Source: Deltaproteobacteria bacterium HGW-Deltaproteobacteria-13 (lineage in GTDB: Bacteria; Desulfobacterota; Syntrophia; Syntrophales; Smithellaceae). From it: a stretch of DNA of 64,000 nt. This document shows, piece by piece, positions 40,339-59,556 of the stretch. Under the pieces are notes generated by a model that made no database searches, was not told the DNA's origin, and was given only the letters and a program-made list of their open reading frames with translations. Each line of letters opens with the position of its first letter. Within the stretch, counting starts at the first letter, position 1. The DNA is taken from the NCBI GenBank assembly GCA_002840555.1, contig PHBJ01000005.1, forward strand, positions 471,902 to 535,901. The letters run 5' to 3'. Position numbers and translations under genes: made by a program.

Positions 40339-40342
40339 ACTA

Positions 40343-40380: not shown

Positions 40381-40570
40381 TTATAATATCTAAAGATAAT
40401 CATGTATCCTACCAGCAAGAAACTTATTGATTATTCATTGATATTAAGTTATCAATTTTAAAACTATTTATTTCATACGACATAATTACACCTTGTAAGA
40501 GAACGATTTTTTTATAGTATATTATTTATTTAGGTAAATAATCTTTAGCATCCCCAAGGAGGCTTTGATT

Positions 40571-41269: not shown

Positions 41270-41460
41270 AGAGCTATATAATACGAGCGCGTTGCCTTCT
41301 AAATTAATCTATTTATATTAATTCAACCATACATTTTTATATAGGCTAGTCTGAATTAATTGATCAGTTGTAAAATAAATAAATTACGTATAATGCAAAA
41401 TATCATATATCCACACCGCTGGCTTTGCTAAAAATATCTATTCCATTTATAATATAAATG

Positions 41461-41577
41461 TCGCCCAATTCAATTTAATCTCCGATTTTTCATACGTATC
41501 CTTGCCTTAAAGGGGCAGTCTGCCAATGATGCGTATCTTCGGAGAGCTGATTTGGGCGACCAGACTGTCCTTTTAAG
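41461..41577 (+). other. Pseudoknotted inverted-repeat region before the second recombinase
   Basis: TCGCCCAA (41,461) pairs with TTGGGCGA (41,552-41,559), enclosing TCTCCGA/TCGGAGA. A second stem joins CTTAAAGGGGCAGTCTG (ending 41,522) with CAGACTGTCCTTTTAAG (41,561-41,577). The two stems interleave, giving a pseudoknot if transcribed. It abuts the recombinase start and may be a control RNA or recombination site. The rest of 41,270-41,460 is AT-rich with no gene seen. Confidence 0.5.
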
Positions 41578-41595
41578 TTGTCTAAAAATAAAAAT

Positions 41596-43182: not shown

Positions 43183-43220
43183 GAAAATGAGCAAGCGATT
43201 CAGAAAAGCTGTTTTAAAAA

Positions 43221-43835
43221 TTACAAATTTTGTGTGATTTCCTTTGATATAAATTTAACAGAGATATCCCCCGTCGTTTTACGACTCGTCCAATACTCAC
43301 CCTCTAATTTCTTATTCGGCTCAAGTATGATTTTTAATATAGCAGCTCCATCATGGATAGCGCTCCTATCGCGTACATTCGCTCGAGATCGGTTAGTATA
43401 ATTATAGCTCAAACGAAACACGCCGCTTTCATCGTCTTCGATGATCTGTGCTGTTGTACTGTAACTATCGGATTCATCCGTATACATCAAGCAACTAATA
43501 TTTGAGAATGTTTGTTTGATGGCTATAGAAACCTCCTTTAAAGGCGGTTTCTGACCACTAATAGAATCAACCCATGTACTTTGGAAAGTGCCTTTCCATG
43601 TGCCTTCTATATCCGGGAATGGAACTAACCAACCCTTGAATATAGGAAGCCTCCATGCCCATTTCGTGAAAATTAGAGCGAGAATGACATAAATTGTTAT
43701 TGCGTCTGGCAACTTTTTTATAGCTTCCCATCCAATTACCAATGGAACTTTCGAAACGAGAAGTACACTCGCCCATATTACAACAAATGAGCCAAGCTGT
43801 AGCCATACTTTAATTTCTTTGCGTATATTTTTCAT
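43221..43835 (-). CDS. cap15: Cap15 CBASS effector (2TM beta-barrel)
   Basis: A 204-residue protein. Two membrane segments lie in residues 12-65. The remainder is a beta-rich domain opening with FPDIEGTWKGTFQSTW and continuing with VSIAIKQTFSNISCLMYTDES and RLSYNYTNRS. This is the pattern of the S-2TMbeta (Cap15) family, which binds a cyclic oligonucleotide and disrupts the inner membrane to abort phage infection. It starts three bases after the CD-NTase stop, so the two form a type I CBASS pair. Confidence 0.85.
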   Translation of the reverse strand: MKNIRKEIKVWLQLGSFVVIWASVLLVSKVPLVIGWEAIKKLPDAITIYVILALIFTKWAWRLPIFKGWLVPFPDIEGTWKGTFQSTWVDSISGQKPPLKEVSIAIKQTFSNISCLMYTDESDSYSTTAQIIEDDESGVFRLSYNYTNRSRANVRDRSAIHDGAAILKIILEPNKKLEGEYWTSRKTTGDISVKFISKEITQNL

Positions 43836-43838
43836 ATA

Positions 43839-44729
43839 TTACTCAAAACCAATATAATCCCATGCAGCCGATAGAAAATTATGAGCTTGTATCCTACTCC
43901 ATGGCTGGGAAGGTCTAAATAAATATTTTATCTCATTTACCTCGCCCCATTCATTGCATTTTTCATCGGTGAGTGTTTCATTGAAAGTATGAGCCAAGAC
44001 ATATCTAACATCATCAGTTAGATTTAAATGACCAAATCCTTTATTTGGAGTATTCCAAACAAGACACTCAATTAAAAAAGAAGCAATGTCGTTAGCCGCA
44101 GTAATTTTATTTTCCTGCATATCGTTACGAAGATTTTTTAGGATTCTGATCATCTTTTTATAACGGCGGGATGTAGCATTATTTTTATCTACCCCATTTG
44201 AGTATGTTTGATCAGGCCAATTCATTATTCTTGCGCCCTTATCAGTATCAAATGCTACTCCGGCTGGTTTTCTGTAATCATCACAGCCATCTTCAAAACA
44301 ATGGTATGCAAATGCCGGTACAACATCGGCGTCAACTCTATAGGAGTTTGAATGAATATCAAATGCCTTATTTCCACGAGTTACATATTGCGATCCAAAA
44401 TAATCATTTAATGCTTCATTGATTAAATTTTTATATTCAGCAAATCTAATGCTTCCATCAGTATAGCCATAGTCTGCATTATTTTTCCCTTCTGGATATC
44501 TTGTAAAAACAGTTGAATTAAGGCGTACGCATACGTCAACATCGCTATCTTGCTTCACGGTTGTATTTGCCTGATAGGAACCTTGGGCAAATACAGTAAT
44601 ATCCATATCAGAGAGGCGATCATGTTTAGCAATGGCCTTTTTAATTGCGGCTTCGGCATTATTCATTTTATCCTGCTCTGTTTGTCCGGGTGGTTTACAC
44701 CACGAATTAAATGTATCTTCCCAGCTCAT
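43839..44729 (-). CDS. CD-NTase (cGAS/DncV-like nucleotidyltransferase) of CBASS
   Basis: A 296-residue enzyme that would make a cyclic di- or trinucleotide on phage sensing. The active site is FAQGSYQANTTVKQDSDVDVCV (GS then DxD), with the third Asp in YRVDADVVPA. The helical C-terminal part has SRRYKKMIRILKNLRN, typical of SMODS nucleotidyltransferases. The product cannot be assigned from sequence alone. It is followed by cap15 and preceded by a HEPN gene nine bases upstream. Confidence 0.9.
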   Translation of the reverse strand: MSWEDTFNSWCKPPGQTEQDKMNNAEAAIKKAIAKHDRLSDMDITVFAQGSYQANTTVKQDSDVDVCVRLNSTVFTRYPEGKNNADYGYTDGSIRFAEYKNLINEALNDYFGSQYVTRGNKAFDIHSNSYRVDADVVPAFAYHCFEDGCDDYRKPAGVAFDTDKGARIMNWPDQTYSNGVDKNNATSRRYKKMIRILKNLRNDMQENKITAANDIASFLIECLVWNTPNKGFGHLNLTDDVRYVLAHTFNETLTDEKCNEWGEVNEIKYLFRPSQPWSRIQAHNFLSAAWDYIGFE

Positions 44730-44738
44730 AATTATTGA

Positions 44739-45206
44739 TCATTTATTTCCTGTTTTTTCTTTAAGGGTTTGTTCCCAGCCAAATGCTTTCAAGAGAATTT
44801 TTTCGTGTTCTCGAAATTTCTCCATTACTTCGTCATTTAAAATTAATCTCTTAAAAGTGTTTGGATTACAAATCACAATTTCATTTTCATTGCTCATCTT
44901 TTCATCTAAATCCCAATGAGCTAAGGCGTTTCTCAGTTGTTGAACAAATCTTAAAGAACTTTTTATTTTTGAATATTGTTTCAATTTTTTGAAATACGGA
45001 ATTTGTTCATAGAGTGAAATCTTTTTATCAAAACTAAAGTGAGATGTTTCTATAATATAATAAAGAAAATCCGAGGCTTGTTGATTAGTTTTTGGAAAAA
45101 AATATGTTCTTAACTTCCATCCAAGTGCTCTTTCTATTACAGTTGCATCTGAAATAATGATACCCCTAAATAAGCTTAATTTCTCTCTGATTATTTTTTT
45201 ATCCAT
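44739..45206 (-). CDS. HEPN-like protein in the CBASS operon
   Basis: A 155-residue helical protein with LRNALAHWD near residue 95, an R-x4-H motif as in HEPN ribonucleases. It lies between the Mrr-like gene (23 bases away) and the CD-NTase (nine bases). It may be a third effector, an RNase linked to the cyclic-nucleotide signal, or a separate defence gene. Confidence 0.6.
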   Translation of the reverse strand: MDKKIIREKLSLFRGIIISDATVIERALGWKLRTYFFPKTNQQASDFLYYIIETSHFSFDKKISLYEQIPYFKKLKQYSKIKSSLRFVQQLRNALAHWDLDEKMSNENEIVICNPNTFKRLILNDEVMEKFREHEKILLKAFGWEQTLKEKTGNK

Positions 45207-45229
45207 ATTAACATTTCATATGATATAAG

Positions 45230-46717
45230 TTATTTATCTTCAAATTGCCATTCATGAACTCTTCTGAACTCATAAACATTAATTTCTTCGTCTTCATCTA
45301 ACTCTCGTCCTAATTGTTTTTGGATACTATTTTTTGTGTTCCATGAATCTGCTGAATCTTCTACATGATTTTTAATTTTTGATTTAAATATATGTGTTAT
45401 CTGGATATAGTCCTGTTCCGTTTCGCTTTGTGGATTATCGATTAATATGACGTCTTTTGGCTTTAAAAAAGAATATTTCCCATCTGTTTCATAAAGCGTG
45501 TCTAGTTTATAATCTTTAAACTGTTTTTGACTTTCGGCGTTCAATAGAATCTTTTTGTCTTTATAGATTTTTTTAAATTTTTCTTTCTCAAATTTTTTAG
45601 GAAATATGCTGATTCTTTTATATTCTTTTGTAAGCTTTATTCCCTTGTTATTTATTTTTATAGTATTCCAAGATCCAGCAAACGGGCCCATGTCACCGAA
45701 AAAATCTACATAAAGGTGGGGGAAATTATAATAAACATCCCCCTTTTCATCTACTATTGCAATGTCGGAATATTTTATAATACAATCAATAGCAGAGTAA
45801 CCTTTATTTTTTCTTGGCAGAAAATCCCAAAAATCATTAACTGAAGTTCTTTTTTTATGTGCTATTTGGCGATCTTCCTGATCTTCTATTTGTCTGTTAA
45901 CCAGGTCAATTTCTTTGGTAAAATCCCACTCCTTTTTTTCTGTATCTACATAGGCAAAATATTCATGGCTATGACACATTAAACCAAGCGGATGATGATC
46001 GAAAGCTATATATTCTCTCCACCGAGGTTTTGTTTCAAAATCTTTATATTCCACTCGATATGGATAATGTGTATCTTTTAAATCTCTCACTAAAATTGAT
46101 TGATGGAATTGACGTCCTTCTCCGACTGTCCTGAATAATTTGTTTTTTACGCTTACTGTTGAACGTATTTCTGTTGCTCTTGTCCTTCTTTTGCTTACTA
46201 ACGAAATGCCAAAAAATGTAAACAATATGCGGTCATTTTTGGGCAAGTGCAGCATATCTTCAAGTTCTGCTTTTCCCCATAGATAAAATTCCATTACCCC
46301 CTTCTTTCGCAGTTCTTCACGAAATATGTCGTAGGAGTCTTTGGAAAAATTTGCTGATGCGGCCAAAATATATCCATACGGAGGGATTTCAGGATTTATA
46401 TCAGAAAGAATTGAGCTTATCTTTTTGGGACCGATCTCTTTTTCCCTTTTCCCCTGGATCATCCATAAATTACCTTCCATTGGATGAACTTGTTCTTCCT
46501 CGATATTATTTTCATTTTCAGAAGTTGTAATTATTTCCGCTTTCTCGTATGCGCGTATATCAAAACCTTCATCATTTCCACTTCTGCCGGTAGCCTCAAT
46601 ACTTTGCCAATCTTTAAAATCGTAAATCAGCTCTCGAATCATATCCTCAAAACGATGAGGGTCTAAATCCTCAAAATGGATAGGTCCGTATGTTCTTGTA
46701 ATTTTTTGTTTAGGCAT
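45230..46717 (-). CDS. Mrr-like restriction endonuclease
   Basis: A 495-residue protein. The first 150 residues hold an Mrr-cat PD-(D/E)xK fold: FEDMIRELIYDF, GRSGNDEGFDIRAYE (Asp) and WMIQGKRE (Q-x-K). The long C-terminal part is highly charged and unidentified; it may be the recognition or sensor part. It belongs to a six-gene minus-strand run ending in CBASS. A degenerate copy of its 5' end lies at 48.36 kb. Confidence 0.7.
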   Translation of the reverse strand: MPKQKITRTYGPIHFEDLDPHRFEDMIRELIYDFKDWQSIEATGRSGNDEGFDIRAYEKAEIITTSENENNIEEEQVHPMEGNLWMIQGKREKEIGPKKISSILSDINPEIPPYGYILAASANFSKDSYDIFREELRKKGVMEFYLWGKAELEDMLHLPKNDRILFTFFGISLVSKRRTRATEIRSTVSVKNKLFRTVGEGRQFHQSILVRDLKDTHYPYRVEYKDFETKPRWREYIAFDHHPLGLMCHSHEYFAYVDTEKKEWDFTKEIDLVNRQIEDQEDRQIAHKKRTSVNDFWDFLPRKNKGYSAIDCIIKYSDIAIVDEKGDVYYNFPHLYVDFFGDMGPFAGSWNTIKINNKGIKLTKEYKRISIFPKKFEKEKFKKIYKDKKILLNAESQKQFKDYKLDTLYETDGKYSFLKPKDVILIDNPQSETEQDYIQITHIFKSKIKNHVEDSADSWNTKNSIQKQLGRELDEDEEINVYEFRRVHEWQFEDK

Positions 46718-46784
46718 GAGAACAGTATTTATAATGCAACGCTTATTTTTGTACTTTAATGTTAAAGACTATCAAATACTGCTT

Positions 46785-47852
46785 TTATTCATCTGCGAAT
46801 TTCAGTCTCGATCTTAGAGTTGAAACTTTATTCCAATTTACTTTTCCATCATGACATAATCGACCAGCAACAATTCCGGAATGAATACCAAAACTATTGG
46901 CGAATTCAATAATTCCTTGGAATGATAATGGTTTTTTTAAAAAATCTGTGTAACTCTTTTCCGGGATTAATTCATCACTAGCAAATCTGTCTGCTTCATT
47001 TTCTTTTTCTTTAGCCGTAACTAAATCTCGATCATCATACTCAATAAATTTTTCTTTCTTTCCATGTAATATCAAATGTCCGATTTCATGGTACAAGGTG
47101 AACCAAAAAATATCTGCCCAAGCATTATAAATACTTAGTTGAATAAGAGGATTATTATTAATCCATCTCACAGCACCGCTAACACCAATGCCGGGGAAAT
47201 GGGGTATGTAAACTAAATAGACTCCACACGTATTTAAAATATCTCTTATTTCCTTCGAATATTCTTCGGGATTCTTTACAGACAATAATTTAATTTTGGG
47301 TAATGACTGTTTTAATTTTTTGTCTGAGTATTCTGGAAGAGTAACCTTTTTCGATTCTATTTCGCCACATCTTAACCATGCTGCTATGCCGTCTTTTTTA
47401 ACTTCTACGCCATTTTTTTTGCGATAAACAACTGGCTCGGTATTCTCAATATATGATAAGGAATTAACACCAAAAAATCGCCAAAGATTTTCAACCTTAT
47501 TCTCATTACTGGATGTTTGCGGGACATATCCTCTTTTAGCCAATTCGTTGTAAAAGAATTTAGGTACCAAACTTATCTCTTTTTTAACTAAAGACATGCG
47601 TTCTAAACGAGCATTTGTCTCTTGATAGTTTTTTTCAAGATTAATCCAAAAAGAGGCAGATCCTCCCAAGGCGTTTTCTAAAAGAAGTGCCGTTTCAACA
47701 GTAATAGAAGCCGATCCATTTATTATTTGGCTTAAATGTTTTTCAGATAATCCAGTTCTTGCACAAAGATTTTTTTGGGGCATTCCTTCCCGTTCCAAAG
47801 CTTTGGCAATGGTGTGTCCTGGATGTACTGCTTTATTTGGTATGTAAGCCAT
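46785..47852 (-). CDS. XRE/HigA-type antitoxin fused to ImmA/IrrE metallopeptidase
   Basis: A 355-residue protein. The N-terminal 90 residues are a HigA-like HTH (HPGHTIAKALEREGMPQKNL, then SGSASITVETALLLE-like repeats of the family). The C-terminal half is an ImmA/IrrE zincin with LYHEIGHLILHG (HExxH). It starts four bases after the HigB-like gene. It would repress its operon and neutralise the toxin, with the peptidase able to relieve that. Confidence 0.8.
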   Translation of the reverse strand: MAYIPNKAVHPGHTIAKALEREGMPQKNLCARTGLSEKHLSQIINGSASITVETALLLENALGGSASFWINLEKNYQETNARLERMSLVKKEISLVPKFFYNELAKRGYVPQTSSNENKVENLWRFFGVNSLSYIENTEPVVYRKKNGVEVKKDGIAAWLRCGEIESKKVTLPEYSDKKLKQSLPKIKLLSVKNPEEYSKEIRDILNTCGVYLVYIPHFPGIGVSGAVRWINNNPLIQLSIYNAWADIFWFTLYHEIGHLILHGKKEKFIEYDDRDLVTAKEKENEADRFASDELIPEKSYTDFLKKPLSFQGIIEFANSFGIHSGIVAGRLCHDGKVNWNKVSTLRSRLKFADE

Positions 47853-47855
47853 AGT

Positions 47856-48194
47856 TTAATCGTGATAATCTTTAAATATTTCTATTATTATAATTGATTT
47901 AATCGTTTTATAATTATCTATTCTAAATTCAGGATCTCCGTCATGATTAGGCCTGAAAATCACTCTATGTTTATCTGTGACATCTACTGCAAAATAGCCT
48001 TTATATTTACCTTTAAGCGGATGAGGGCGAAAGCTGCGTGGAACATCAAATAACGTATCGGCTGCAATTAATATATCTATTGTAGCTATAATATCTTTTG
48101 CAAAGTCAAAACCTTTCTTGTTAAATTTTCTACACAAAGCCTCATAGTTATTTAAAAGAGTTTCGTGTTTTAGATTATCGAAGTCTAGATTCAT
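47856..48194 (-). CDS. higB: RelE/HigB-type toxin
   Basis: A 112-residue protein with the HigB/RelE fold signature HPLKGKYKGYFAVDVTDKHRV then IIEIFKDYH. Such toxins are ribosome-dependent mRNA interferases. Toxin-first order ahead of the HTH/ImmA gene is the HigBA arrangement. Exact catalytic residues are not assigned. Confidence 0.75.
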   Translation of the reverse strand: MNLDFDNLKHETLLNNYEALCRKFNKKGFDFAKDIIATIDILIAADTLFDVPRSFRPHPLKGKYKGYFAVDVTDKHRVIFRPNHDGDPEFRIDNYKTIKSIIIIEIFKDYHD

Positions 48195-48360
48195 GATAGC
48201 ATGTATTTATAATATTGCAAGAAAATACTTTACCAACTTGGTAAATAAAATAATGGCCCTTTTGCCTTTAAGCAGCCGTCCTTAACCCTTTAATTCCACT
48301 CTGTTTAATAATTTCAATCTTCATGTGAAAGCGTTAAATGGTTGACCTTTTCTTCTATGC

Positions 48361-48448
48361 TCCGCCAATCTTTAAAATATAAACCAACTTTCGAACTTAA
48401 TCCTCAAAACGGATAGAACCACGTACTCTTGCTACTTTTTGTTTGAGG
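48361..48448 (-). pseudogene. Remnant of the 5' end of an Mrr-like gene
   Basis: This DNA aligns with 46,605-46,717, including CCAATCTTTAAAAT, TCCTCAAAA-GGATAG and CTTTTTGTTT-AGG, but with gaps and no open frame. It is a decayed relative of the neighbouring nuclease gene. Apart from this and the next remnant, 48,195-48,886 holds no gene that I can see. Confidence 0.6.
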
Positions 48449-48620
48449 ATTGAAGACTTCTACTAAATATAAGTTTCTAATTCAACACTTATTTCTTTGT
48501 ATATTCACGATTTTAAATTATTTTAAGTTTATGCTTAGTCAAGAAGAATCGCAAGGATAGTTCAAAACAATGGATTAGCCTTGTTTTGATGCATAGAACC
48601 TCTCTCTCGTTAGTTCAAAC

Positions 48621-48683
48621 CAAATTATAGCTGAGTTGAAGCAATGGCAAGCATTGAAGCAAGGTTTCAGTCTTGCTGTTTGA
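48621..48683 (+). pseudogene. Third remnant of a serine recombinase 3' end
   Basis: Twenty-one codons QIIAELKQWQALKQGFSLAV and stop match the recombinase C-terminus QIIIELKHWQELRESFWLTA. No upstream coding. Confidence 0.7.
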
Positions 48684-48886
48684 AAAAAGCAGTGGAAAGT
48701 TTTTTAACTTAGATGTTGTAAATCGGAATTACCTTGACGATTGGTGTCTAGCTATATGCAATTATTAGCTGATAATTATGTAACCTTTTCCTTTCAAGAA
48801 AAAAGAGGTTATGTTATTTTGATACTCAAAATATCGGGAAAAGCGAAGATCGTATACTAATTGTTATTTTATAAGGAGCTATTAAA

Positions 48887-49258
48887 ATGGAAAATTATAT
48901 TCCGCTTCTCTCTGGTTTAATCGGTGCTTTAATCGGAGCCACTGCATCAATAGCAACAATCATAGTCCAATCTCGATCACAAAATAAACGAGAAAGAATA
49001 AAAATGGCTGCTCAAATAGCAATGGAAGATGTAAAGATATCGATGGAAATTGCATTTAAATCTGGGAAACGAACAGCGATTCCAGCCCCAACTGTTTACT
49101 TGCATTATCATATGAAGCTCATGGAATTGCTAGAGAACAACAATCTTGATTCAGTTACACTTCGTCTTCTTACTGAAGAAAACAGGAAAATAATAGACTC
49201 TTTAAAATTACTCAACAGTGAACGAGAAGAACAATTACGGGTTCAGAAAGATCAGTGA
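48887..49258 (+). CDS. Small single-span membrane protein
   Basis: A 123-residue protein with one N-terminal hydrophobic segment (LIGALIGATASIATIIVQS) and a charged cytoplasmic helical tail. AAGGAG precedes the ATG. No family recognised. It lies upstream of the Swt1/HEPN-like gene on the same strand and may act with it. Confidence 0.55.
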   Translation: MENYIPLLSGLIGALIGATASIATIIVQSRSQNKRERIKMAAQIAMEDVKISMEIAFKSGKRTAIPAPTVYLHYHMKLMELLENNNLDSVTLRLLTEENRKIIDSLKLLNSEREEQLRVQKDQ

Positions 49259-49375
49259 ATAATAATTTTCAAATAACTTTCCAAATCAACCGTCCACCGC
49301 GCCGGTTGATTTTTTTAGTGGATCACAATAAATGAAAGTATCTTGTCTTTAGTTTTTATCACTTGGTGATACGAT

Positions 49376-51205
49376 ATGATAATTGACTTAAAAAACCGTT
49401 CACTGTTGCACAATTTTGATTTCGACAGTAACGCAATAGGAACAATTCGATGTGAGTCAGTGAGCTACAACAATCAATCAACATTGGCCAAAATGCTCGA
49501 ATTACCAAAAGTGAGTAGTTTAGAGTTTACCAGGCAATTGCTGCGTTTGCTCTGCAAAAAGATAGTGGCATTTAGCGGTCAAGAAGATTCGAATGTCCAT
49601 GGAGATTGTTTAACCGATGGAGAAATCAATCTGATTACAGATGAAGAGATTGAGACCTTTTCTCTGAAATTCATCACTTACAACGGATGGCTTTTTGAAT
49701 CCTATAAAGACGGTGAACGGCAGGTTCGACCTAACGAGAAGGGAGAAACGATTGTCTCCTTTACGCCCAAAATCATCGACCTTCCTAAGGAAGAAGCAGA
49801 GAGTAGCAACGACTATTTGTTTCGCCTTTTTCGTCACTTCTTCAAACGGGAGAGTGCACAACTGAAAATAACAACGAATAAAACAAAACATCAATTAACC
49901 CAAGGCCTCTTTGGGGATGCTAACCGATACCTCACAGAGAACTCCGCAATATCTACCATGGAACGAATTATAAAGCGCGAGCAAGAGCTAATGCAAATAA
50001 ATGATCCACTCAGAGATACGATAAATCATGTGGACTTAGTAAATAAATATATTACTTCGCAATACCAACATGAGCAAGACCTGATGTGGAAAGCTACCAG
50101 CCAGGCCGAAGAGGCTAGACGCCAGCTTGAGGAAGTCACACAAAGTTTAATATTGTCAGAAGCAATCTACCACAACGAAAGTTTGGCAAGGGATATTGCT
50201 CTAAGGGCAGCCCAGATGGAGGCCATATCGGCTGCCAAGATCGTAAATGATATGCAAAAACAACAGTTGGAAACTCGTGAGTTGATAAAACGCCACGAAA
50301 TGATGTTCCGGCTTCCTCAGACGTTTGAGATAGATCATCTCCTTAATAGTTATGAAAGTGGTGTAGTTGTCAAGTTCGCCCAACAGCATGGAGTTCCCAT
50401 GCTTGATATACAAAGAACCCTTGAAACGATCACAACTCCTTGGCTGCATAGAGTAGAAGCTGAGCGGTCTGTTTCAGCCATCCTTGAATTGTATGGTATC
50501 GGGAATGCTCTCAAGACAGTAAATGGATTTGATCCTGAATTTACCGTGGCTCTTCGTTATGATCTTGGTGACTGGAGAGACAAAATCACTTTCCCTGAAG
50601 CTGTTTTCATCGATCCCGTTGCTCGGAATGATTTCTATATAGATCGTGGTTTTAACTCGGCACTCACTGATTTCCCAGAAGCAGCTTTTCATGCGGGTCT
50701 CGACATTGCTGGTCTTAATGACGCGTCTCTAGATTTGGAATTATTCGGGATAGTTAAGTTGCGGTCGGCTAATCCAGAAGAAGAGGCTGGCCTTCAAAGA
50801 ACAAACAAGTGCCATGATCTTTTACAGAGGTTTGAAAGGTTGCTGCGTAAATTCATTGACGAGAAAATGACTACCCAATACGGCCTTGATTGGCCGAAGA
50901 AGAGACTTGCACCAAAGATTTATGAGGAGTGGAAATTCAAGAAAGAAAAAGCTGAAAAAAACGGAGAAATTTTAGATTACATTGAAGTAGCTGATTTCAC
51001 CGACTATGAGACGATTATTTGCAAGAAAGATCATTGGCGAGAAGTCTTTCAAGGAAGTTTCAAGAGAATGGAAAGTGTCCGTGAGTCACTACAGCGTCTT
51101 CAACCAATCCGTATAGCTTCCATGCATGCTCGGATTGTCACTAAAGAAGACGAGCTATATCTTATTGCGGAAATCATACGATTGCGAAGTGCAATGAAAA
51201 CTTGA
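49376..51205 (+). CDS. Large protein with C-terminal Swt1/HEPN-like domain
   Basis: A 609-residue protein. The N-terminal 190 residues are unidentified, residues 195-310 are coiled-coil-like (EEARRQLEEVTQSL), and residues 445-609 resemble the Swt1-type HEPN domain (RLLRKFIDEKM, YGLDWPKKRLA, then LQPIRIASMHARI with R-x4-H near the end). Genes of this type often accompany defence islands. A phage-induced RNase role is an inference. Confidence 0.55.
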   Translation: MIIDLKNRSLLHNFDFDSNAIGTIRCESVSYNNQSTLAKMLELPKVSSLEFTRQLLRLLCKKIVAFSGQEDSNVHGDCLTDGEINLITDEEIETFSLKFITYNGWLFESYKDGERQVRPNEKGETIVSFTPKIIDLPKEEAESSNDYLFRLFRHFFKRESAQLKITTNKTKHQLTQGLFGDANRYLTENSAISTMERIIKREQELMQINDPLRDTINHVDLVNKYITSQYQHEQDLMWKATSQAEEARRQLEEVTQSLILSEAIYHNESLARDIALRAAQMEAISAAKIVNDMQKQQLETRELIKRHEMMFRLPQTFEIDHLLNSYESGVVVKFAQQHGVPMLDIQRTLETITTPWLHRVEAERSVSAILELYGIGNALKTVNGFDPEFTVALRYDLGDWRDKITFPEAVFIDPVARNDFYIDRGFNSALTDFPEAAFHAGLDIAGLNDASLDLELFGIVKLRSANPEEEAGLQRTNKCHDLLQRFERLLRKFIDEKMTTQYGLDWPKKRLAPKIYEEWKFKKEKAEKNGEILDYIEVADFTDYETIICKKDHWREVFQGSFKRMESVRESLQRLQPIRIASMHARIVTKEDELYLIAEIIRLRSAMKT

Positions 51206-51497
51206 TATAAATTTCCACACGCTCTTGAACGCTGACGCTGCACAGGCCAAGCGCAACAACATTACTTTCTTTTGATCCGCAATACACAGTATATATAAAT
51301 GTCCTCAACTGAAACTTTATAGCTATAGCAAGTAAGCACTTTCCTCTGAAGTGATTAAAAATCGCAAATAATAATGCTTGATTTCGGCGTGCACTTTGGA
51401 CAAGTTATGGCTGATATAATCAATGTTCGTTTTATCTAACAGCAGTGTTAATGAAAATGACAAAGAGTAATGGAATAAAAGCCGAAAGGAGTAAACT

Positions 51498-51704
51498 ATG
51501 AGTGATTGGTCTCAGCTTTCTTTACAAGATTATGAATTGAATTACATCTTAAAAAAAATTAACAAGAAAGAATCAGAAGCAAACCGACAAATTTTACGAA
51601 ATTGGGAGAAAAAATTTAAGGATACCAAGGGAGGTCAGGGAACAAAATCTTATACAAAAGAAGAATTTTACGATTATCTTAAAAGCAACAAAGTGGAATC
51701 ATAG
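51498..51704 (+). CDS. Small charged hypothetical protein
   Basis: A 68-residue, lysine-rich protein with AAAGGAG upstream. It has YELNYILKKINKKE near its start and resembles in length and pattern the small protein at 35,972. Function unknown. Confidence 0.5.
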   Translation: MSDWSQLSLQDYELNYILKKINKKESEANRQILRNWEKKFKDTKGGQGTKSYTKEEFYDYLKSNKVES

Positions 51705-51774
51705 TTGGACTAGTTTTTATAAATCCATTACTCTTTGTCAAATTGAAAAAACATTTTTTGTTGAGTGCTCGTAG

Positions 51775-52311
51775 TCACTCAGAAAACTCTGTATGCTTAT
51801 TAGCAACAAAACACTTAGGAAGCCAACACGGAACAATAATCGAATATTTTTTATAAGCATCTCCGAAATGATTATGGAGATACGGTTCTTCAAATTTTCC
51901 GATATAGATAACTGAAAAGCGAATGAAGACAAGCAGCCAAAAGAATGTAAACGAAGAACTGTACATCAACGTTTCTCCGAATAATACAAAGAAAAGCGAC
52001 CACATCATAGGATGGCGAACTTGGCTGAACGGTCCAGAGGTAACCAGCGCTTTTGGTTTGAAAAAAGGGATAACCGAACTTAAGCGATTGGTTGACATGA
52101 GTACTGAGCACCAAACAGCGATAATCAGTCCAATCCACATCAATACGACGCCTGATATTTCAAAGAAGTAAATTTTTCGTAATTCGATACCAAAATAAGG
52201 CTCTATCCTGCGGAAGAACAACGGGATGATATACAAAACATTAAAAGGTCCTATGAAAAAATATATCAAAGAATCTATTCCGCCCAATATTAAAGAAACA
52301 AATCTAGTCAT
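51775..52311 (-). CDS. ICMT/PEMT-like membrane methyltransferase
   Basis: A 178-residue polytopic membrane protein with four or five hydrophobic segments. The motif ALVTSGPFSQVRHPMMWS and the C-terminal EEPYLHNHFGDAYKKY segment are those of the isoprenylcysteine carboxyl methyltransferase/phospholipid methyltransferase superfamily (SAM-dependent). Substrate unknown; it is an unusual cargo gene. Confidence 0.75.
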   Translation of the reverse strand: MTRFVSLILGGIDSLIYFFIGPFNVLYIIPLFFRRIEPYFGIELRKIYFFEISGVVLMWIGLIIAVWCSVLMSTNRLSSVIPFFKPKALVTSGPFSQVRHPMMWSLFFVLFGETLMYSSSFTFFWLLVFIRFSVIYIGKFEEPYLHNHFGDAYKKYSIIVPCWLPKCFVANKHTEFSE

Positions 52312-52380
52312 TTTTCCGCTCCTTTTAAATCCTTCAGATTAATGGACAAATTGACATTCTTGCCTTAGTCTTAATTGGTA

Positions 52381-52402
52381 AGCGCCTCTTTACAAAGAGA
52401 CG
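52381..52402. repeat. Left palindromic site flanking recombinase three
   Basis: GCGCCTCTTT-AC-AAAGAGACGC is a 22-base near-palindrome centred on AC, the form of a serine-recombinase crossover site. Its right 16 bases recur inverted at 53,190-53,205. Confidence 0.65.
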
Positions 52403-52429
52403 CTGAAATAACGGTTAACCATCGACTAC

Positions 52430-53182
52430 ATGGAAAAAAAGAAACTTGTAGCGGCGTATTGCCGGGTAAGCACTCTTGAACAGAAAAAGAAAGGCTATGG
52501 AATTGACATTCAGAAACGGGATATTGAGAAATATGCGGAAAATCAGAGTTTACTTGTGGATTCCTTCTACCTGGACGAGGCTAAAAGCGGAGTGTCTGAA
52601 AGGCGTACGGCGCTCAATAAGCTTGTCAGAAACTGCAAAAGCGGCGAGGTCGGCACGATTATCGTCTCTTCGCTGGATCGTTTGTCCCGCGATCTTCGAT
52701 TCACGGAAAATTTGCTTCACGATTTGAATAAGGTAGGTGTAACGGTATTTATTGCCGATATGCCCAATTATGACGGTAATGACAGGAAGGATGTGCTAAT
52801 CAGACAAATTAAAGAAGCCATTGCTGAAGAAAACCGTAAAGAAATTATTGAAAGACTCAAGAAAGGTCGGGAAGAAAGAGCACGAAAGGGCTGTATTGCT
52901 GGCGGCACCCTGCCTTACGGATACATGAGACAAGGCAAAGAAATAAAGAAAAATCCGAAGGAAGTGGAAATTGTAAAAGCTATTTACTCATTGAGTAAGC
53001 AGCATAAAACAGACAGTGAAATAACCGACCGCCTTAACGGACGCGGCTATTACCGCCGGAACGGAAAACACTGGACACAACGGCAAGTGAGCGCCGTTTT
53101 AAGCAGAGAAAATCTTTATCGAAAAGGTATTGTTAAATACGGGGAAATAAGCGGAGAAAACGCTGATTTAATTATCATTTAG
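52430..53182 (+). CDS. Short serine recombinase (third in the island)
   Basis: A 250-residue protein: resolvase catalytic domain (AAYCRVSTLEQ with the Ser, then SSLDRLSRDLRF) and part of the Recombinase domain (TLPYGYMRQGKEIKKNP, WTQRQVSAVLSRENLY). It has no zinc ribbon and is shorter than typical large serine integrases. It is tightly bracketed by 16-base inverted repeats with a two-base palindrome centre, suggesting it inverts or moves the intervening segment. Confidence 0.8.
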   Translation: MEKKKLVAAYCRVSTLEQKKKGYGIDIQKRDIEKYAENQSLLVDSFYLDEAKSGVSERRTALNKLVRNCKSGEVGTIIVSSLDRLSRDLRFTENLLHDLNKVGVTVFIADMPNYDGNDRKDVLIRQIKEAIAEENRKEIIERLKKGREERARKGCIAGGTLPYGYMRQGKEIKKNPKEVEIVKAIYSLSKQHKTDSEITDRLNGRGYYRRNGKHWTQRQVSAVLSRENLYRKGIVKYGEISGENADLIII

Positions 53183-53189
53183 AGGTTTG

Positions 53190-53205
53190 GCGTCTCTTTG
53201 TAAAG
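53190..53205. repeat. Right inverted site flanking recombinase three
   Basis: GCGTCTCTTTGTAAAG is the exact reverse complement of 52,387-52,402. The outer arm has diverged. Confidence 0.65.
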
Positions 53206-53468
53206 CGGAACCGTAGTTTCTTTTTTCTATCAAAATGGGAGAAAAAATACAAGTTAAAATTTATAAAATATACCACTGCGAATTATCGCAATGATTTGTT
53301 AATTATAAAATATTTCTCTTTCAATCATTGAGAAATAATTTATTATTAAATAGAAAGAAAGACAGGAAGCAAGAAAGCATTTTAGCATTTTTCAGAGGAA
53401 AAATAATTTTCTTTGTCCTAACAAATTATATGTTGCACGTTTAAGATTATCTAGTGTTTTTTTAGTCA

Positions 53469-54416
53469 TTATTTTTCCTCCACCGAGTCCGGTTCCTCAT
53501 AAATTACTGAGTAGCCAACAACTGCTGCTTCTTCTGGCGTAAGCAATTCACGCAAATTTTTATAGAAATTATACAATTCTATATCCATCAATTTTACAAA
53601 TTCATCATCTGGCAAGATTCCCATATTGCTTTGTGTTCGTCGTTCTTTATTAATACGCTCATGTTCTTTTTGATAGTCAATAATTTTTTGAAGTTTTTCA
53701 TAAGGCACAATAGAAAAAAGCTCTTTTTCTGATGTTATATCTTTATCTATACTTAATTCTCCAAATGCTTCTGATTGCGGCCAATACAACCCTTCCACAT
53801 CATCATACGGGTGTGGTTTTTCCCGTAATTGCCACTTCGCAATACCTAACATAATTTGAAATTGTTCTTCCGTAAAATTTTTAAGAAGGAATTCATGAAA
53901 CCTTTTTTCTATTTCCCATCCGGCTACAGAAAATGTTCCGTAGCTGGCATTTCTTTGCTCAAGATTGTAAGTTGCTAATGTCATTGTTGCTCGAAAACGT
54001 TTTAATTGTTCAACAATGGAAGGAGTCAAATTAAACGACTCAATAATATCCTGCATATCTCGATCTACACCATTGATATAATCGGGATCAATGCTTTGTG
54101 CTTCTTTGATTATTTCTTCGTTGGATTTTTTATCAAGCTCCTCAAACAATTGCTTAGCTTCTTCTTCAGCTTTTTCTCTACTGGTTCTTAAAATACTGAA
54201 TGTAGGAGAAATCTTTTCGTTATTTATATCTGTTGATACGGCCATTTGTCTTGGTATCGGTGTAGAAAGTTTAATGGTGTCAATAGGATTGCCTGCTAAC
54301 CAATTTATTTGAGCAAATACCCCTCTTTTCCCGGATTGCAATATGCCTCGGTGATACCAGCCAATCAAAGCAATTAATATAATTAATGATAGGAGTATTA
54401 TTTTATATTTTTTCAT
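53469..54416 (-). CDS. Membrane-anchored hypothetical protein
   Basis: A 315-residue protein with an N-terminal hydrophobic anchor (KIILLSLIILIALIGWY) and a mostly helical periplasmic or cytoplasmic part rich in Glu and Lys. No family recognised. Confidence 0.55.
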   Translation of the reverse strand: MKKYKIILLSLIILIALIGWYHRGILQSGKRGVFAQINWLAGNPIDTIKLSTPIPRQMAVSTDINNEKISPTFSILRTSREKAEEEAKQLFEELDKKSNEEIIKEAQSIDPDYINGVDRDMQDIIESFNLTPSIVEQLKRFRATMTLATYNLEQRNASYGTFSVAGWEIEKRFHEFLLKNFTEEQFQIMLGIAKWQLREKPHPYDDVEGLYWPQSEAFGELSIDKDITSEKELFSIVPYEKLQKIIDYQKEHERINKERRTQSNMGILPDDEFVKLMDIELYNFYKNLRELLTPEEAAVVGYSVIYEEPDSVEEK

Positions 54417-54506
54417 AATTTCTGCAAAACAATCTGCCCTTGTCTGTGTTAGGGGTGCAACGTAATATTACACGGGCAATGGAGATGATTTTAATGACTT
54501 ATAATA

Positions 54507-55028
54507 TTATTGATTACATTTGGCCTTACAGTCTTTTTCAAGACCATCCTTACCATAAGTTCCATAAACCATTTTTGTCACCCAATAACCTTTTGCATCA
54601 GAGACAGTTGGCCCACCATTTTTTCCCGTTCGTAGTCCATGGTTTGTTTCCTGATGGCATGTCCCTCTTCGATTAGCGGGATTGCTTATATACTGCTTGA
54701 CATCACAAGCGCCTCCTTTTTTTGCGTTGTCATAGACGCATTTTACATTGGTGTTATTTTCATTTGAGGTCGTATTTGATAATTTCTTTCCTTCTTCACT
54801 TCGTCCTGTACGAGAATAGCATTTCTCAGTTCCGCTTGATTTTTTCTTCTCGCAATAATAAGTATGATGTGCCTCTTTTAAACCCCAAAGTGTTACCCAA
54901 TCTTTCTCTTCAAGGGGAAGGTAACGTGCATAAACTTCATATTTTTTTTCGCTGGCCTGTGCCGAAATAACAGCCATTATAGTGATAAAGAAACATGCGC
55001 ACATCATGGAAATAATGATTTTTTTCAT
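54507..55028 (-). CDS. Secreted hypothetical protein
   Basis: A 173-residue protein with a signal peptide (MKKIIISMMCACFFITIMAV, cleavage probably after AQA). The mature part has six or so Cys, suggesting disulfides, and a C-terminal CKAKCNQ. AGGAGG precedes the ATG. No family recognised. Confidence 0.6.
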   Translation of the reverse strand: MKKIIISMMCACFFITIMAVISAQASEKKYEVYARYLPLEEKDWVTLWGLKEAHHTYYCEKKKSSGTEKCYSRTGRSEEGKKLSNTTSNENNTNVKCVYDNAKKGGACDVKQYISNPANRRGTCHQETNHGLRTGKNGGPTVSDAKGYWVTKMVYGTYGKDGLEKDCKAKCNQ

Positions 55029-55140
55029 ATAACCTCCTTATAATGTATGCTATATTTTGACGTACTATAATTAAGTTATCATGGAAATTAAAATGTGACA
55101 AGAATCGATGAAATATCCTTGATTTAGCGCCCTTCACACA

Positions 55141-55437
55141 TTAAGGCGTTCTGCGACCCCAGGCCCAGTCTCCTCCCACCGCGACGAAAATCTCTCCATG
55201 AATGTTATTTCTTGTGAAGACAGCTTGTGTATCTGTGCATAGAGAATCCCGCACTGTAGCTGCACTCTGCCCTGTAAATTCGCCAGCGGTGGTCGTCGTC
55301 GGTAACATTATGGCTTTCCCGTTGTCTGGCGTGATTGTCTTCTTCAATCCTATGGCCTCGAATCCTTTGTAAACATTATCGTAATCGTCTGCGTCTCCAT
55401 TCTTGATATCAAACGATACGATTGCAAGATAACTCAT
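55141..55437 (-). CDS. Small unknown protein, last gene of the regulated operon
   Basis: A 98-residue soluble protein with alternating strands (YLAIVSFDIKNGD, IMLPTTTTAGEF, GEIFVAVGGDWAWG), a small ferredoxin-like fold reminiscent of Cas2-type proteins by shape only. GGAGG precedes the ATG. No function is known. Confidence 0.55.
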   Translation of the reverse strand: MSYLAIVSFDIKNGDADDYDNVYKGFEAIGLKKTITPDNGKAIMLPTTTTAGEFTGQSAATVRDSLCTDTQAVFTRNNIHGEIFVAVGGDWAWGRRTP

Positions 55438-55595
55438 GGTTTCCTCCTTTGCTAACTCAACATATTTGTATGGATCTTTTTAATTTTGTAAACATCAACA
55501 ATTTTGTCGACAATATTTTTTATCAGCCTTGTATTATCTGATCCAATTTCTGACTATCGATATTACTATAGAAAGAATTGGAGATAATAGTCTGA

Positions 55596-55901
55596 TTAAA
55601 ACTCAGGAAGATTGTCGAGATTGTCTATGGCCTTCCCGTTATCAACAGTTTTAATGTACTCAACTCCATTTATTTTAATAATGTAAACAGATTGACCCTT
55701 CTGCCATTTTCCGTCACTGCCCTTAAATATTGTTACAAATGTTGTACCTTTTTTAATTGCGTTAACTATGTCCATTCTTGTTTGTTCAAAAAAAGCACCT
55801 ATAGAATCACCATTGTCAGGATGTACTCTAACCTTATTAATGTGGGTGTGTCCTTCATTAAATTTAACCGCTGAAATTCCGTAATCAGCCCATTTGCTCA
55901 T
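55596..55901 (-). CDS. DUF3892 domain protein
   Basis: A 101-residue protein. The pattern WADYGISAVKFNEGHTHI, then ATGTTFVTIF-like and GVEYIKT strands, matches DUF3892. Function unknown. It is preceded by GGAGGG and belongs to the small-gene operon behind the promoter at 56,461-56,489. Confidence 0.65.
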   Translation of the reverse strand: MSKWADYGISAVKFNEGHTHINKVRVHPDNGDSIGAFFEQTRMDIVNAIKKGTTFVTIFKGSDGKWQKGQSVYIIKINGVEYIKTVDNGKAIDNLDNLPEF

Positions 55902-55966
55902 AATTCCCTCCTTTTGTTAATTAGATGATTAGTTTTTTTCTCATTCAATAATATGTGTATCCCACA

Positions 55967-56227
55967 TTAATTTACCGTATATTCTTTCCAAGGAATCGCA
56001 TGTAATGGAACACTTGCAAGAAAACGAGAAATATCTTGACGTCCATAATATTCTGCCCTTCCTTGATGATTCTGCGCCATCAGTACAATAGGAATGCCAG
56101 GAAATATTGGCTGAAATCCTTGCATTGCTCTATTTGCCTCTATTCTGTTGTCTAAAACTGACTTTTTTACAACCACAACTGCAAATGTAACTCCCTGTTC
56201 TTTTATCACAGCTCCCTGAAGTTTCAT
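55967..56227 (-). CDS. Small unknown protein of the DUF3892 operon
   Basis: An 86-residue protein with beta-rich start (VIKEQGVTFAVVVVKKSVL) and a C-terminal segment YYGRQDISRFLASVP. It lies 12 bases after the preceding small gene. No family recognised. Confidence 0.55.
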   Translation of the reverse strand: MKLQGAVIKEQGVTFAVVVVKKSVLDNRIEANRAMQGFQPIFPGIPIVLMAQNHQGRAEYYGRQDISRFLASVPLHAIPWKEYTVN

Positions 56228-56239
56228 AAAAGGTCCCTC

Positions 56240-56413
56240 CTATTTTTCTTTCCGAACGCCTTTGAAGGGTTCATCATCAGATTTTTGGTCAATAAATTGT
56301 CCGGTTTCATTATCTCTTTTGGTCCAGCGATTGTTCTTGGGATTATAAGTCTGAGAACGTTCTTTTACTGCACCATGCCTGTGCCCGTCTCCATAAGGTG
56401 GATTTTTTGCCAT
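56240..56413 (-). CDS. Small basic protein, first gene of the DUF3892 operon
   Basis: A 57-residue hydrophilic protein (MAKNPPYGDGHRHGAVKERS; ending KSDDEPFKGVRKEK). I recall very similar small proteins, of unknown role, in many unrelated bacteria. GGAGG lies before ATG 56,413, which is preferred over an ATG five codons upstream. The first gene behind the operator-promoter. Confidence 0.65.
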   Translation of the reverse strand: MAKNPPYGDGHRHGAVKERSQTYNPKNNRWTKRDNETGQFIDQKSDDEPFKGVRKEK

Positions 56414-56437
56414 GTTCAATACCTCCATAATTTTAAT

Positions 56438-56489
56438 TTCGCTATACGCGATTGCGATACTGTATAGCGAACTTTTAAAAATATGTCAA
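56438..56489 (-). promoter_or_regulatory. Promoter with overlapping palindromic operator
   Basis: On the minus strand TTGACA (56,489-56,484) and TATACA (56,466-56,461) are spaced by 17 bases, an excellent sigma-70 promoter for the small-gene operon. A perfect 10-base inverted repeat TTCGCTATAC (56,438-56,447)/GTATAGCGAA (56,462-56,471) covers the -10 element, so the XRE protein encoded next door probably represses here. Confidence 0.75.
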
Positions 56490-56499
56490 GAATTTTTTG

Positions 56500-56528
56500 T
56501 TGCATTGCGTAATATAGTAATGTATAAA
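56500..56528 (+). promoter_or_regulatory. Promoter of the XRE regulator
   Basis: TTGCAT and TATAAA with a 17-base spacer, divergent from the operator promoter. AGGAGG at 56,544 precedes the TTG start. Confidence 0.55.
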
Positions 56529-56557
56529 GAACTAAGTTTTTTTAGGAGGACTGAATA

Positions 56558-56962
56558 TTGACTACAGGTGATAGAATCCGTGAGATCAGAGAGAAGAGAG
56601 GCCTTACTCAGGAGAAGCTTGCAAAAATGGCTAACATTAGTAAGGGGTTTTTATGTGATGTTGAGAATAATAAAAGAAATATCGGTTCGCAAGGCATATT
56701 AAGCATAGCCAATAGTTTGGGTGCATCTGTTGATTATTTACTAAGTGGTGAGGTGAAAGAAAATATAGAAAATGAGCAAATTTTAATACCACCGGATTTA
56801 TCTCAAGCAGCCAAGGACATGAATCTTAGTTATAGTGACACGCTTGATCTACTTAAGACTTTTAACTCAGCTGTTGCCAGAAGAAGTAACAAATACCATA
56901 AGTCTCTTACCGTTGATGAATGGAAAAAGTTTTATACAGCGATAAAGGAGGTATTCAAATAA
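56558..56962 (+). CDS. XRE-family repressor (ImmR-like)
   Basis: A 134-residue protein starting with TTG behind AGGAGG. The HTH is in residues 5-60 (IREIREKRGLTQEKLAKMAN, then GFLCDVENNKRN). Its TAA stop is followed directly by the GTG of the ImmA-like gene, so the two are coupled. By analogy with ImmR/ImmA of ICEBs1 it would repress the element and be cleaved by its partner; that is an inference. Confidence 0.85.
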   Translation: MTTGDRIREIREKRGLTQEKLAKMANISKGFLCDVENNKRNIGSQGILSIANSLGASVDYLLSGEVKENIENEQILIPPDLSQAAKDMNLSYSDTLDLLKTFNSAVARRSNKYHKSLTVDEWKKFYTAIKEVFK

Positions 56963-57985
56963 GTGACGACAAGATTAAGGCAGTCAACAAAGATTTGGAA
57001 ATTAGCCAAAGATTTAGGCATTAAGACGAGTAACGATCCAGTTTCTGATATTTTGAACTTCTGCGAAAAAAGAATAAAAAATTTGTTAAAAGAAGCAACT
57101 GATTGTCATTCATTATCAGATTTTCTTAGTTGGATTGCCGGTAAGCTTGGAACTTCTTTTGAGGAAATTTATAGTGATAACGATCTAATGCAAGTTAAAG
57201 AAAAATACTTAAAGCAAGGTGAAAAAATATTTGTAACTTTGGATCATGAATTATCTGATGATATGCCGGGTATAACATATCGGAGATCAAACAGAGAACC
57301 TTGGGAATTTCCATTTGTATCTATAATTGATTGTCGTGGCAAAAATGTTAAAAGAGCATACTACACTAAATGGCATGAAGTGGCTCATCTTCTTGTGCTC
57401 ACAGATCAATCACGTCTATGTTTTACGAGAACATTACATCTTCCCGAAAAAGATCCTGAAGAACAAATGGTTGATATCATTGCTGGCAAATTTGGATTTT
57501 ATAGCCCATTCATAAAACCACATATAAAAAGTGAAATATCTTTTGAAAAAATAGATTCTCTTAGACAATCTCTGTGTCCGGATGCAAGCAACCAATCTTC
57601 TCTTATTGGTTTCGTTAAGGCATGGCCTGAACCATGTATACTTCTCTTGTGCAAAGCAGGTTTAAAAATGTCGGAGATAAGACAAGCTATACAAACCAGT
57701 TTCTTTGATACGCCAGCACCTGTATTACGTGCAGTAAAAGTCACCGCGAACGAAGCAGCGAAGGAAATGGATATTAAAATATTCGAGAACATGCGTGTAC
57801 CCAAGCATTCTATAATATACGACGTTCATAATTGCATAACTGATTATGCTGAAGCATTGGAAGATTTATCATGGTGGGAAACTAGTAATGGCACTATTCT
57901 GCAAAAACGTAAAATTTTAGTTAAAGCAAAAAATTATTGGGGAGACACCTATGTCCTGATAATTCCAAAATCTTACAATTCTTAA
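56963..57985 (+). CDS. ImmA/IrrE-family metallopeptidase
   Basis: A 340-residue protein starting with GTG right after the repressor stop. TKWHEVAHLLVL gives the HExxH zinc motif, with DPEEQMVDIIAGKF downstream as the third-ligand region. Family members cleave the XRE repressor they are paired with. The extra 130-residue C-terminus is unidentified. Confidence 0.85.
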   Translation: MTTRLRQSTKIWKLAKDLGIKTSNDPVSDILNFCEKRIKNLLKEATDCHSLSDFLSWIAGKLGTSFEEIYSDNDLMQVKEKYLKQGEKIFVTLDHELSDDMPGITYRRSNREPWEFPFVSIIDCRGKNVKRAYYTKWHEVAHLLVLTDQSRLCFTRTLHLPEKDPEEQMVDIIAGKFGFYSPFIKPHIKSEISFEKIDSLRQSLCPDASNQSSLIGFVKAWPEPCILLLCKAGLKMSEIRQAIQTSFFDTPAPVLRAVKVTANEAAKEMDIKIFENMRVPKHSIIYDVHNCITDYAEALEDLSWWETSNGTILQKRKILVKAKNYWGDTYVLIIPKSYNS

Positions 57986-58056
57986 CGTCATTAGATGAAT
58001 TTCAGATTTCATCTGAGATCAATTACTACTCCTTTTTAAACGAGGATGGATATTGA

Positions 58057-59556
58057 ATGGAAAAGTCCAAGTCCGTCGGTATTTGGATTCGGGTCTCAAC
58101 AGAAGACCAGGCCAGAGGCGAAAGCCCTGAGCACCACGAGAAACGAGCGCGCTTCTATGCTGAAGCCAAAGGCTGGCACGTGCGGGAGGTTTACCATCTG
58201 GAAGCGGTTAGCGGTAAATCTGTCATGGGGCAACCCGAAACGCAACGAATGCTGGAGCATATAGAGAACGGCCATATCACCGGCCTCATTTTTTCTAAAC
58301 TTGCGCGTCTGGCCCGCAACACCAAAGAGCTTCTTGATTTTGCTGATATATTCAGGAAATACGACGCCGACCTCATTTCTCTTCAAGAATCCATTGACAC
58401 CTCAACCCCCGCTGGCAGACTCTTTTACACTATGATTGCTGCCATGGCCCAGTGGGAGCGTGAAGAAATCTCAGAACGGGTAGCAGCTTCGGTGCCGATT
58501 CGGGCAAAGCTCGGTAAGCCTCTCGGCGGCCAAGCTCCTCTTGGCTATAGCTGGAAAGATAGAAAGCTAGTGCCTGATCCTATAGAAGCCCCGGTTAGAA
58601 AGCTTCTCCACGAGCTATTTTTGGAACATAAGAGGAAGAAAACCGTGGCCCGGTTACTGAATGAAATGGGATACCGGACAAGAAATGGGTCCAATTTCTC
58701 AGATACCACCGTCCTAAGGCTGCTGCGCGATCCCTCGGCTAAAGGGCTTTATCGACAAAACTATACTAAAAGCCTTGGCGACAATAAGAAGTGGGTTACA
58801 AAGCCAAAAGAAGAATGGATATTTACCGAAATCGAACCAATTGTCTCCGAGGAGTTATGGAATCAGTGCAACGCAATCCTTGATGATCAGGAAAAGAAAA
58901 ACAAGAGACCGACCAAAAAGCCGGTTCATTTGTTTACCGGTTTTGCCTTTTGTAATTGTGGAAATAAAATGTATGTACCTTCAAATTCTCCAAAATATAC
59001 CTGCTATAAATGTCGAAATAAAATAGGTGTCACTGATCTTGAAGACATCTTTCATCACCAACTCAGGGACTTCTTTTTCTCTCAATCTGATATCGCCGGA
59101 TATTTAGATAAAGCCGACCAAATGATTAAGGAAAAAGAAGCGCTCTCAAAGGCACTCCTTGACGAAAAGAAAAAGACTGAACGGGAGATGGACAAGATAT
59201 ATAGATCGTACATGGACGAAGAGATAGATTCAAAAACCTTCGGAAGTCTTTATCGCCCAAAAACAGAAAGAGTGAATCAAATAGATGCTCAGTTCCCTGA
59301 CCTTCAAGGAGAGATCGACTTCCTAAGGATTCAATACCTTTCCAGTGATCATATTCTCAATGAAGCTAAAGACCTTTATTCTCGCTGGCCGAAACTTGCT
59401 ATTGAAGAGAAACAAAAGATTATCGAAAACATCACTGATAAAATCATCATAGGATCAGAAGACGTAACCATCAACCTCTGCTACCTTCCGCCATCATCTG
59501 AAATGATGGCAGATAAGCAACGCAACTTCATGGATTCATCGCCGCCACCAGCATAA
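58057..59556 (+). CDS. Large serine integrase; its last codons are host yifB DNA
   Basis: A 499-residue recombinase as integrated. The catalytic domain has [11 protein letters not shown] with the Ser, then [10 protein letters not shown]. The Recombinase domain covers about 155-265, a zinc ribbon ([20 protein letters not shown]) about 305-335, and a coiled coil about 360-400. The CAT core lies in codons 491-492, so the last seven residues and stop (DSSPPPA) are antisense yifB sequence. In the circle the frame continues into the double-HTH ORF. It is the only recombinase at an island edge and thus the likely integrase. Confidence 0.92.
59509..59531. other. Right attachment junction (hybrid att site)
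   Basis: The island arm GCAGATAAGCAACGC (59,509-59,523) precedes the CAT core, and yifB follows. It pairs with the left-end arm in inverted orientation, with a 12-base spacer in the joined site. Confidence 0.85.

Follow-up and report, generated by a model that had tools for sequence, protein, structure and literature searches.

The 64,000-nucleotide window of Deltaproteobacteria bacterium HGW-Deltaproteobacteria-13 analysed here contains an integrated island. Its extent, about 30.75 kb, follows from a split comM (yifB) gene, whose N-terminal part lies at 59528-60586 and C-terminal part at 28301-28684, and from an ATG shared by both junctions (59529-59531 and 28776-28778). Close to its right end, within 55141-57985, a repressor/peptidase gene pair diverges from four small genes across an intergenic region of 144 bases (Table 1). 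A serine integrase gene in the same orientation begins 71 bases beyond the peptidase gene and is possibly co-transcribed with the pair, which the sequence-only reading had already placed beside the integrase. The island also encodes a CBASS pair (PADLOC Cyclase 4.6e-123 and 2TM effector 2.1e-73; Pfam Cap15_CD_rec and SMODS), directly beside which no CapH/CapP-like pair was identified; at 46785-48194, a HigA-M78 protein that resembles PD-Lambda-2_B and, after it, a YafQ/RelE-like protein; and, at 49376-51205, a protein of 609 aa that has a Swt1-like HEPN domain and weakly matches the PADLOC candidate PDC-M34B. The CBASS pair, the HigA-M78 protein and the Swt1-like HEPN protein together mark the island as defence-bearing. 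Two more serine recombinases (41578-43182 and 52430-53182, the latter of only 250 aa) suggest nested or decayed insertions. No relaxase, secretion, transfer or excisionase genes were found among the island proteins tested, which are a subset of its ORFs.

Table 1 Features of the divergent locus and of the island that carries it (window coordinates)
Feature	Position	Strand	Basis or remark
Small gene 4 ('s98'), 98 aa, phrog_22820	55141..55437	-	Operon membership uncertain
Small gene 3, DUF3892 protein, 101 aa	55596..55901	-	PF13031 1e-12; phrog_32719 4e-45
Small gene 2 ('s86'), 86 aa, phrog_23950, compact alpha/beta fold predicted	55967..56227	-	
Small gene 1 ('s62'), 57 aa, phrog_12550, no Pfam/NCBIfam family	56240..56413	-	
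Putative operator dyad TTCGCTATAC-N14-GTATAGCGAA	56438..56471		Over -10 of small-gene promoter
Small-gene promoter TTGACA-17-TATACA	56461..56489	-	Sequence; conserved in L010
Repressor promoter region TTGCAT-17-TATAAA with third operator half site TGTATAAAGAAC	56498..56533	+	Sequence, conservation
Repressor, XRE helix-turn-helix, 134 aa, CapH/ImmR-like, TTG start	56558..56962	+	Pfam, PADLOC
Peptidase, CapP/ImmA-like zinc metallopeptidase, 340 aa, very divergent, GTG start	56963..57985	+	Motif, hhalign
Large serine integrase, right end of island	58057..59556	+	Resolvase, Recombinase Pfam; phrog_95 1.7e-104
CBASS pair: CD-NTase and 2TM/Cap15-type effector	43221..44729	-	PADLOC, Pfam
Integrated island, about 30.75 kb, splits comM (yifB)	28776..59531		comM halves, junctions

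The repressor is matched by Pfam HTH_19 (9e-13) and also by HTH_3. Its match to PADLOC capH (1.5e-10) comes from a profile that is not specific among XRE proteins, as generic control-protein models score equally well and such matches are indistinguishable from those of other XRE repressors. A homolog at locus L010 is 75% identical, and at locus L074 capH is the best PADLOC match of a distant relative (1e-10). The repressor's TAA is directly followed by the peptidase GTG in one frame; the stop/GTG join described earlier is thus present, but the two genes are not fused, because the stop codon precedes the GTG and the peptidase has its own GGAGG Shine-Dalgarno sequence. The peptidase contains KWHEVAHLL (HExxH) and, 25 residues further on, an EExxxDxIA stretch, and H138, E139, H142 and E167 are invariant across four homologs with identity down to 31%. 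It is matched by none of the Pfam M78, NCBIfam or PADLOC capP models, a PDB sequence search with it gave nothing credible, and its homolog at locus L011 has a weak PADLOC capP match (0.0015). An earlier hhalign comparison with three sequences was negative (prob 0.6), whereas one that took in the distant homolog from L074 and more M78 proteins aligned the family with the M78/ImmA set (prob 84, E 7.6e-6), with HExxH and the downstream glutamate in register. The AF2 model built from a three-sequence alignment reached a pLDDT of 35 and was not used. Given this model and the missing Pfam M78, NCBIfam and PADLOC capP matches, a CapP fold is left unclaimed, and the protein is termed CapP/ImmA-like on its sequence features rather than a proven CapP.

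The small-gene promoter has its -35 element TTGACA at 56484-56489 and its -10 element TATACA at 56461-56466, with a 17-base spacer; our promoter scan demands a T at the last -10 position and thus did not list it. The dyad arms, TTCGCTATAC (56438-56447) and GTATAGCGAA (56462-56471), are separated by 14 bases and complementary at 10 of 10 positions, and the right arm overlaps the -10 element. Both arms are identical at L010, where the pair is 75% identical; this locus also keeps the -35 element and, with one change, the half site on the repressor promoter. The promoter and the perfect 10-base dyad of the sequence-only reading were both confirmed. Since a perfect arm of at least 10 bases arose in 29 of 2000 dinucleotide shuffles of the 144-base region, the dyad alone would be moderate evidence only; the case for an operator comes from the conservation of the arms at L010 and from the single occurrence of the full site in the 3.5-Mb host genome. 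The third half site, TGTATAAAGAAC near 56520, sits on the -10 element of the repressor's own promoter, and the more distant relative L011 carries TTGCGAAC and TTAGCGAAC repeats within its intergenic region. Homology and the conserved operator support the proposed autoregulation of the pair and its control of the small genes; the ImmR/ImmA label originally given to this arrangement fits less well than CapH/CapP, for reasons given below.

Each of the four small ORFs has a strong Shine-Dalgarno sequence, and consecutive genes are spaced by 12, 65 and 158 bases. The first three therefore look like one operon, whereas gene 4, after the 158-base gap, may have its own promoter and may lie outside it. 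Gene 1 most likely starts at 56413, giving 57 aa, rather than at 56428. Its product aligns over its full length with phrog_12550 (8.2e-21, positions 1-56 of 56), shares the conserved motif MAxNPPxGDGHRxGAV...FKGVRKEK with its relatives and is matched by no Pfam or NCBIfam model. The predicted structure of the gene 2 product has a pLDDT of 94; its best Foldseek E-value was 0.011 and its VIA Z did not exceed 6.5, which chance arrangements also reach, and the model was not used to assign a function. Gene 3 was correctly assigned to DUF3892 (PF13031), at 48.8 bits against a Pfam gathering cut-off of 22.3; our literature search returned no relevant papers on DUF3892 in defence. All four genes have PHROG families, and none of the small proteins matched an excisionase family in Pfam or PHROG, or a toxin family in Pfam, PHROG, NCBIfam or PADLOC. 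Among 297 genomes of the phylum, host counted, gene 1 was found in 10 and genes 2, 3 and 4 in two each. No other of these genomes has two of the families, and the four-gene set was rejected as a conserved unit for the phylum.

Of the named relatives of the pair, the closest belongs to a Syntrophaceae metagenome bacterium. Three relatives were found, each of which faces an operon of immune type and has no integrase directly behind the pair. At L011 it is divergent from AAA, bacHORMA_2 (3.7e-70) and CD-NTase (1e-125) genes, which form a type III CBASS system. At L010/L049 it is divergent from the same 57-aa gene together with Multi_ubiq, DUF6791-ThiF and DUF6527 genes, an operon that resembles the ubiquitin-like operons of the CapKS paper (PMC13373217), and at L074 from E2/E1 and JAB genes. 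These contexts shift the weight from excision control of the ImmR/ImmA type towards a controller of an immune operon. ImmR/ImmA-type pairs control excision on DNA damage in ICEBs1 and TnSmu1 (PMC10233336), and the window pair is similar in combining an XRE repressor and an HExxH peptidase near an integrase in a mobile element, here one bounded by comM halves; it differs in its long, divergent peptidase. By analogy, the pair would quiet the island and trigger its excision upon DNA damage, with the small genes as excision or transfer factors. However, the relatives of the pair are not tied to an integrase, no second good operator copy was found at the integrase of the island, a search of the tested island proteins revealed no relaxase, secretion or other transfer gene, and the small genes gave no match to an excisionase family. 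We therefore consider excision control or mobilization, as proposed in the sequence-only reading, rather unlikely.

The neighbourhoods of gene 1 point in the same direction as the relatives of the pair. Relatives 60-81% identical were found in Desulfobacterota, Proteobacteria, Bacteroidota, Cyanobacteria, Actinomycetota, Deinococcota and Firmicutes phages; a DNA similarity search found none in E. coli genomes. On plasmids of Klebsiella, Marinobacter, Serratia, Citrobacter and Burkholderia, gene 1 adjoins WYL regulators, followed by CBASS genes in Burkholderia and by yegP in Marinobacter, and in Vibrio gigantis it lies between an HTH gene and SAVED/nucleotidyltransferase genes. A WYL (CapW-like) or HTH+M78 regulator was found within 2.5 kb of gene 1 at 21 of 36 non-redundant loci from several phyla, compared with 10 of 383 control positions, all of the latter in L094, itself a gene-1 locus. 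This is a strong enrichment but an uncalibrated statistic, because the 36 loci (which exclude the viral-contig scan) include those used to build the profiles, the sample is non-random and the control positions are not independent of one another. Among loci outside those used for profile building, an HTH+M78 pair or fusion stood directly beside gene 1 in seven of eight, all of the host's own family. As to the survey of the four-gene set that had been proposed as a check, the set is not conserved, and its members occur without this pair, but often with other immune-type regulators. No earlier description of the gene 1 family was found in the open-licence papers searched, and one may exist elsewhere; a word search of the main text of the CapW and BrxR papers (PMC9122588, PMC9122601) did not turn up the 57-aa gene.

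In viral contigs, gene 1 accompanies such regulators in only three of 33 clusters, and phages carry it under other control. Gene 2 likewise occurs in many viral contigs, DUF3892 relatives, those on plasmids among them, include genes downstream of terminase in enterobacterial prophages, and all four genes belong to PHROG families; the viral-contig search returned no relatives of DUF3892, s98 or the peptidase. The small genes could on these grounds be phage-derived accessory or counter-defence genes that came under the island repressor by chance. This seems unlikely, as outside phages gene 1 lies regularly beside immune-type regulators and inside CBASS and ubiquitin-like loci, and gene 2 lies beside a WYL gene and a CD-NTase-like gene. 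Even less probable, to a degree that we regard as very unlikely, is a toxin-antitoxin-like addiction module in which the HTH and M78 proteins would be combined with a small toxic protein. Modules of HTH and M78 proteins are sometimes annotated as toxin-antitoxin systems, and the same island holds a separate HigA-M78/YafQ-like pair; nevertheless, the small proteins match no toxin family, and gene 1 is common to immune operons that have their own effectors.

Gene 2 shows comparable surroundings. At L045 it diverges from a WYL gene and has downstream of it a gene that, judged by eye, is CD-NTase-like, and on plasmids it adjoins ImmA/IrrE (L063), HTH/CopG, or S8 peptidase and AAA genes (L064 and L069), with DUF2188 accompanying it in two cases. 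The S8 peptidase and AAA ATPase genes, which stand beside s86/DUF2188 operons on Rhizobium and Leptolyngbya plasmids, are possibly another controller type. A protein of 88-92 aa without a Pfam family (L055:4015-4278 and L063:3705-3980) has relatives in 89 plasmid records. It comes after gene 1 in Citrobacter and Serratia plasmids and before s86 in Fuscovulum, and thereby links the gene-1 and s86 small-gene operons. A relationship, suspected by eye, between the product of gene 4 and the 88-aa protein encoded after gene 1 in the Citrobacter and Serratia plasmids was not supported (hhalign prob 2.8). YegP, DUF2188, DUF1883 and KTSC proteins are neighbours of genes 1 and 2, which are thus part of a loose pool of small proteins recurring at such places.

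The arrangement in the window can be compared with several known controllers. CapH and CapP are an HTH repressor and an ssDNA-activated metallopeptidase that control CBASS and other immune operons (Lau et al. 2022, as cited in PMC13373217 and PMC10904395). The window locus shares with them a repressor-peptidase pair divergent from an operon, a candidate operator at the promoter, and relatives that face CBASS and ubiquitin-like operons; it differs in its peptidase of about 340 aa, which lies below detection by the capP and M78 models, and in an operon of four small genes that is no known effector system. The CapKS study names CBASS and Bub among the immune operons controlled by CapW and CapH+CapP, and describes ubiquitin-like operons as often under CapW or CapH+CapP (PMC13373217). 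CapW/BrxR (WYL) and CapK/CapS are likewise divergent from or upstream of immune operons (PMC9122588, PMC9122601, PMC13373217), although they belong to regulator families other than those of the window pair. The 57-aa gene directly adjoins WYL regulators in several plasmids, and yegP, which follows CapKS in 57 reported cases (PMC13373217), follows a WYL gene and the 57-aa gene in Marinobacter. DdrO/PprI (IrrE) of Deinococcus is similar in that a metallopeptidase cuts a repressor after DNA damage (PMC10904395), but serves a regulon of DNA-damage response genes rather than one adjacent operon.

Taken together, the locus is probably a CapHP-like switch, a divergent controller of an adjacent pathway, that would derepress the small-protein operon upon DNA damage or phage infection. 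The repressor would bind the dyad over the small-gene promoter and the half site at its own promoter, and both promoters would have low activity as long as it is bound. Once ssDNA arises through DNA damage, phage replication or incoming DNA, the metallopeptidase would be activated and would cut the repressor, by analogy with CapH/CapP and PprI/DdrO (PMC13373217, PMC10904395), and a burst of expression of the small-gene operon would follow. That operon would be an immune or stress operon, in which gene 1 is the part recurrent beside WYL and HTH+M78 regulators and the genes behind it vary by locus. The explanation is built on homology, the zinc-ligand residues, the conserved operator and the recurrent neighbourhoods, from which we infer binding, cleavage, the ssDNA signal and protection; of the roles considered for the small genes, a protective one fits best, judging by the neighbourhood. 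Several points speak against the CapHP-like explanation: the capH match is not specific among XRE repressors, the peptidase lacks Pfam M78, NCBIfam and capP matches, the four-gene set was found in no other of the 297 genomes, gene 1 in viral contigs and the prophage relatives of DUF3892 would also suit phage accessory genes, and the integrase directly downstream leaves some room for excision control.

The regulator is thus of an ordinary kind, and what is new is the divergence of the peptidase and the genes under control. DNA-damage controllers of immune operons have come to light only recently and their number is growing, and the divergent peptidase family extends CapP-like controllers beyond current profile detection. 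We put forward only tentatively, as possible rather than probable, the combined proposal that damage-controlled immune operons across phyla have in common, as a component not recognised so far, the 57-aa protein, which is carried by plasmids, islands and phages, and that the four proteins of the window form a minimal immune or stress module under a CapHP-like switch. What can be carried over to other systems is the repeated occurrence of the 57-aa family next to immune controllers. The position of this strongly conserved small protein beside controllers as different in architecture as WYL proteins, HTH+M78 pairs and HTH-M78 fusions offers a handle for finding new Cap-controlled systems, and raises the question of whether it serves as a component, in self-protection or as an effector.
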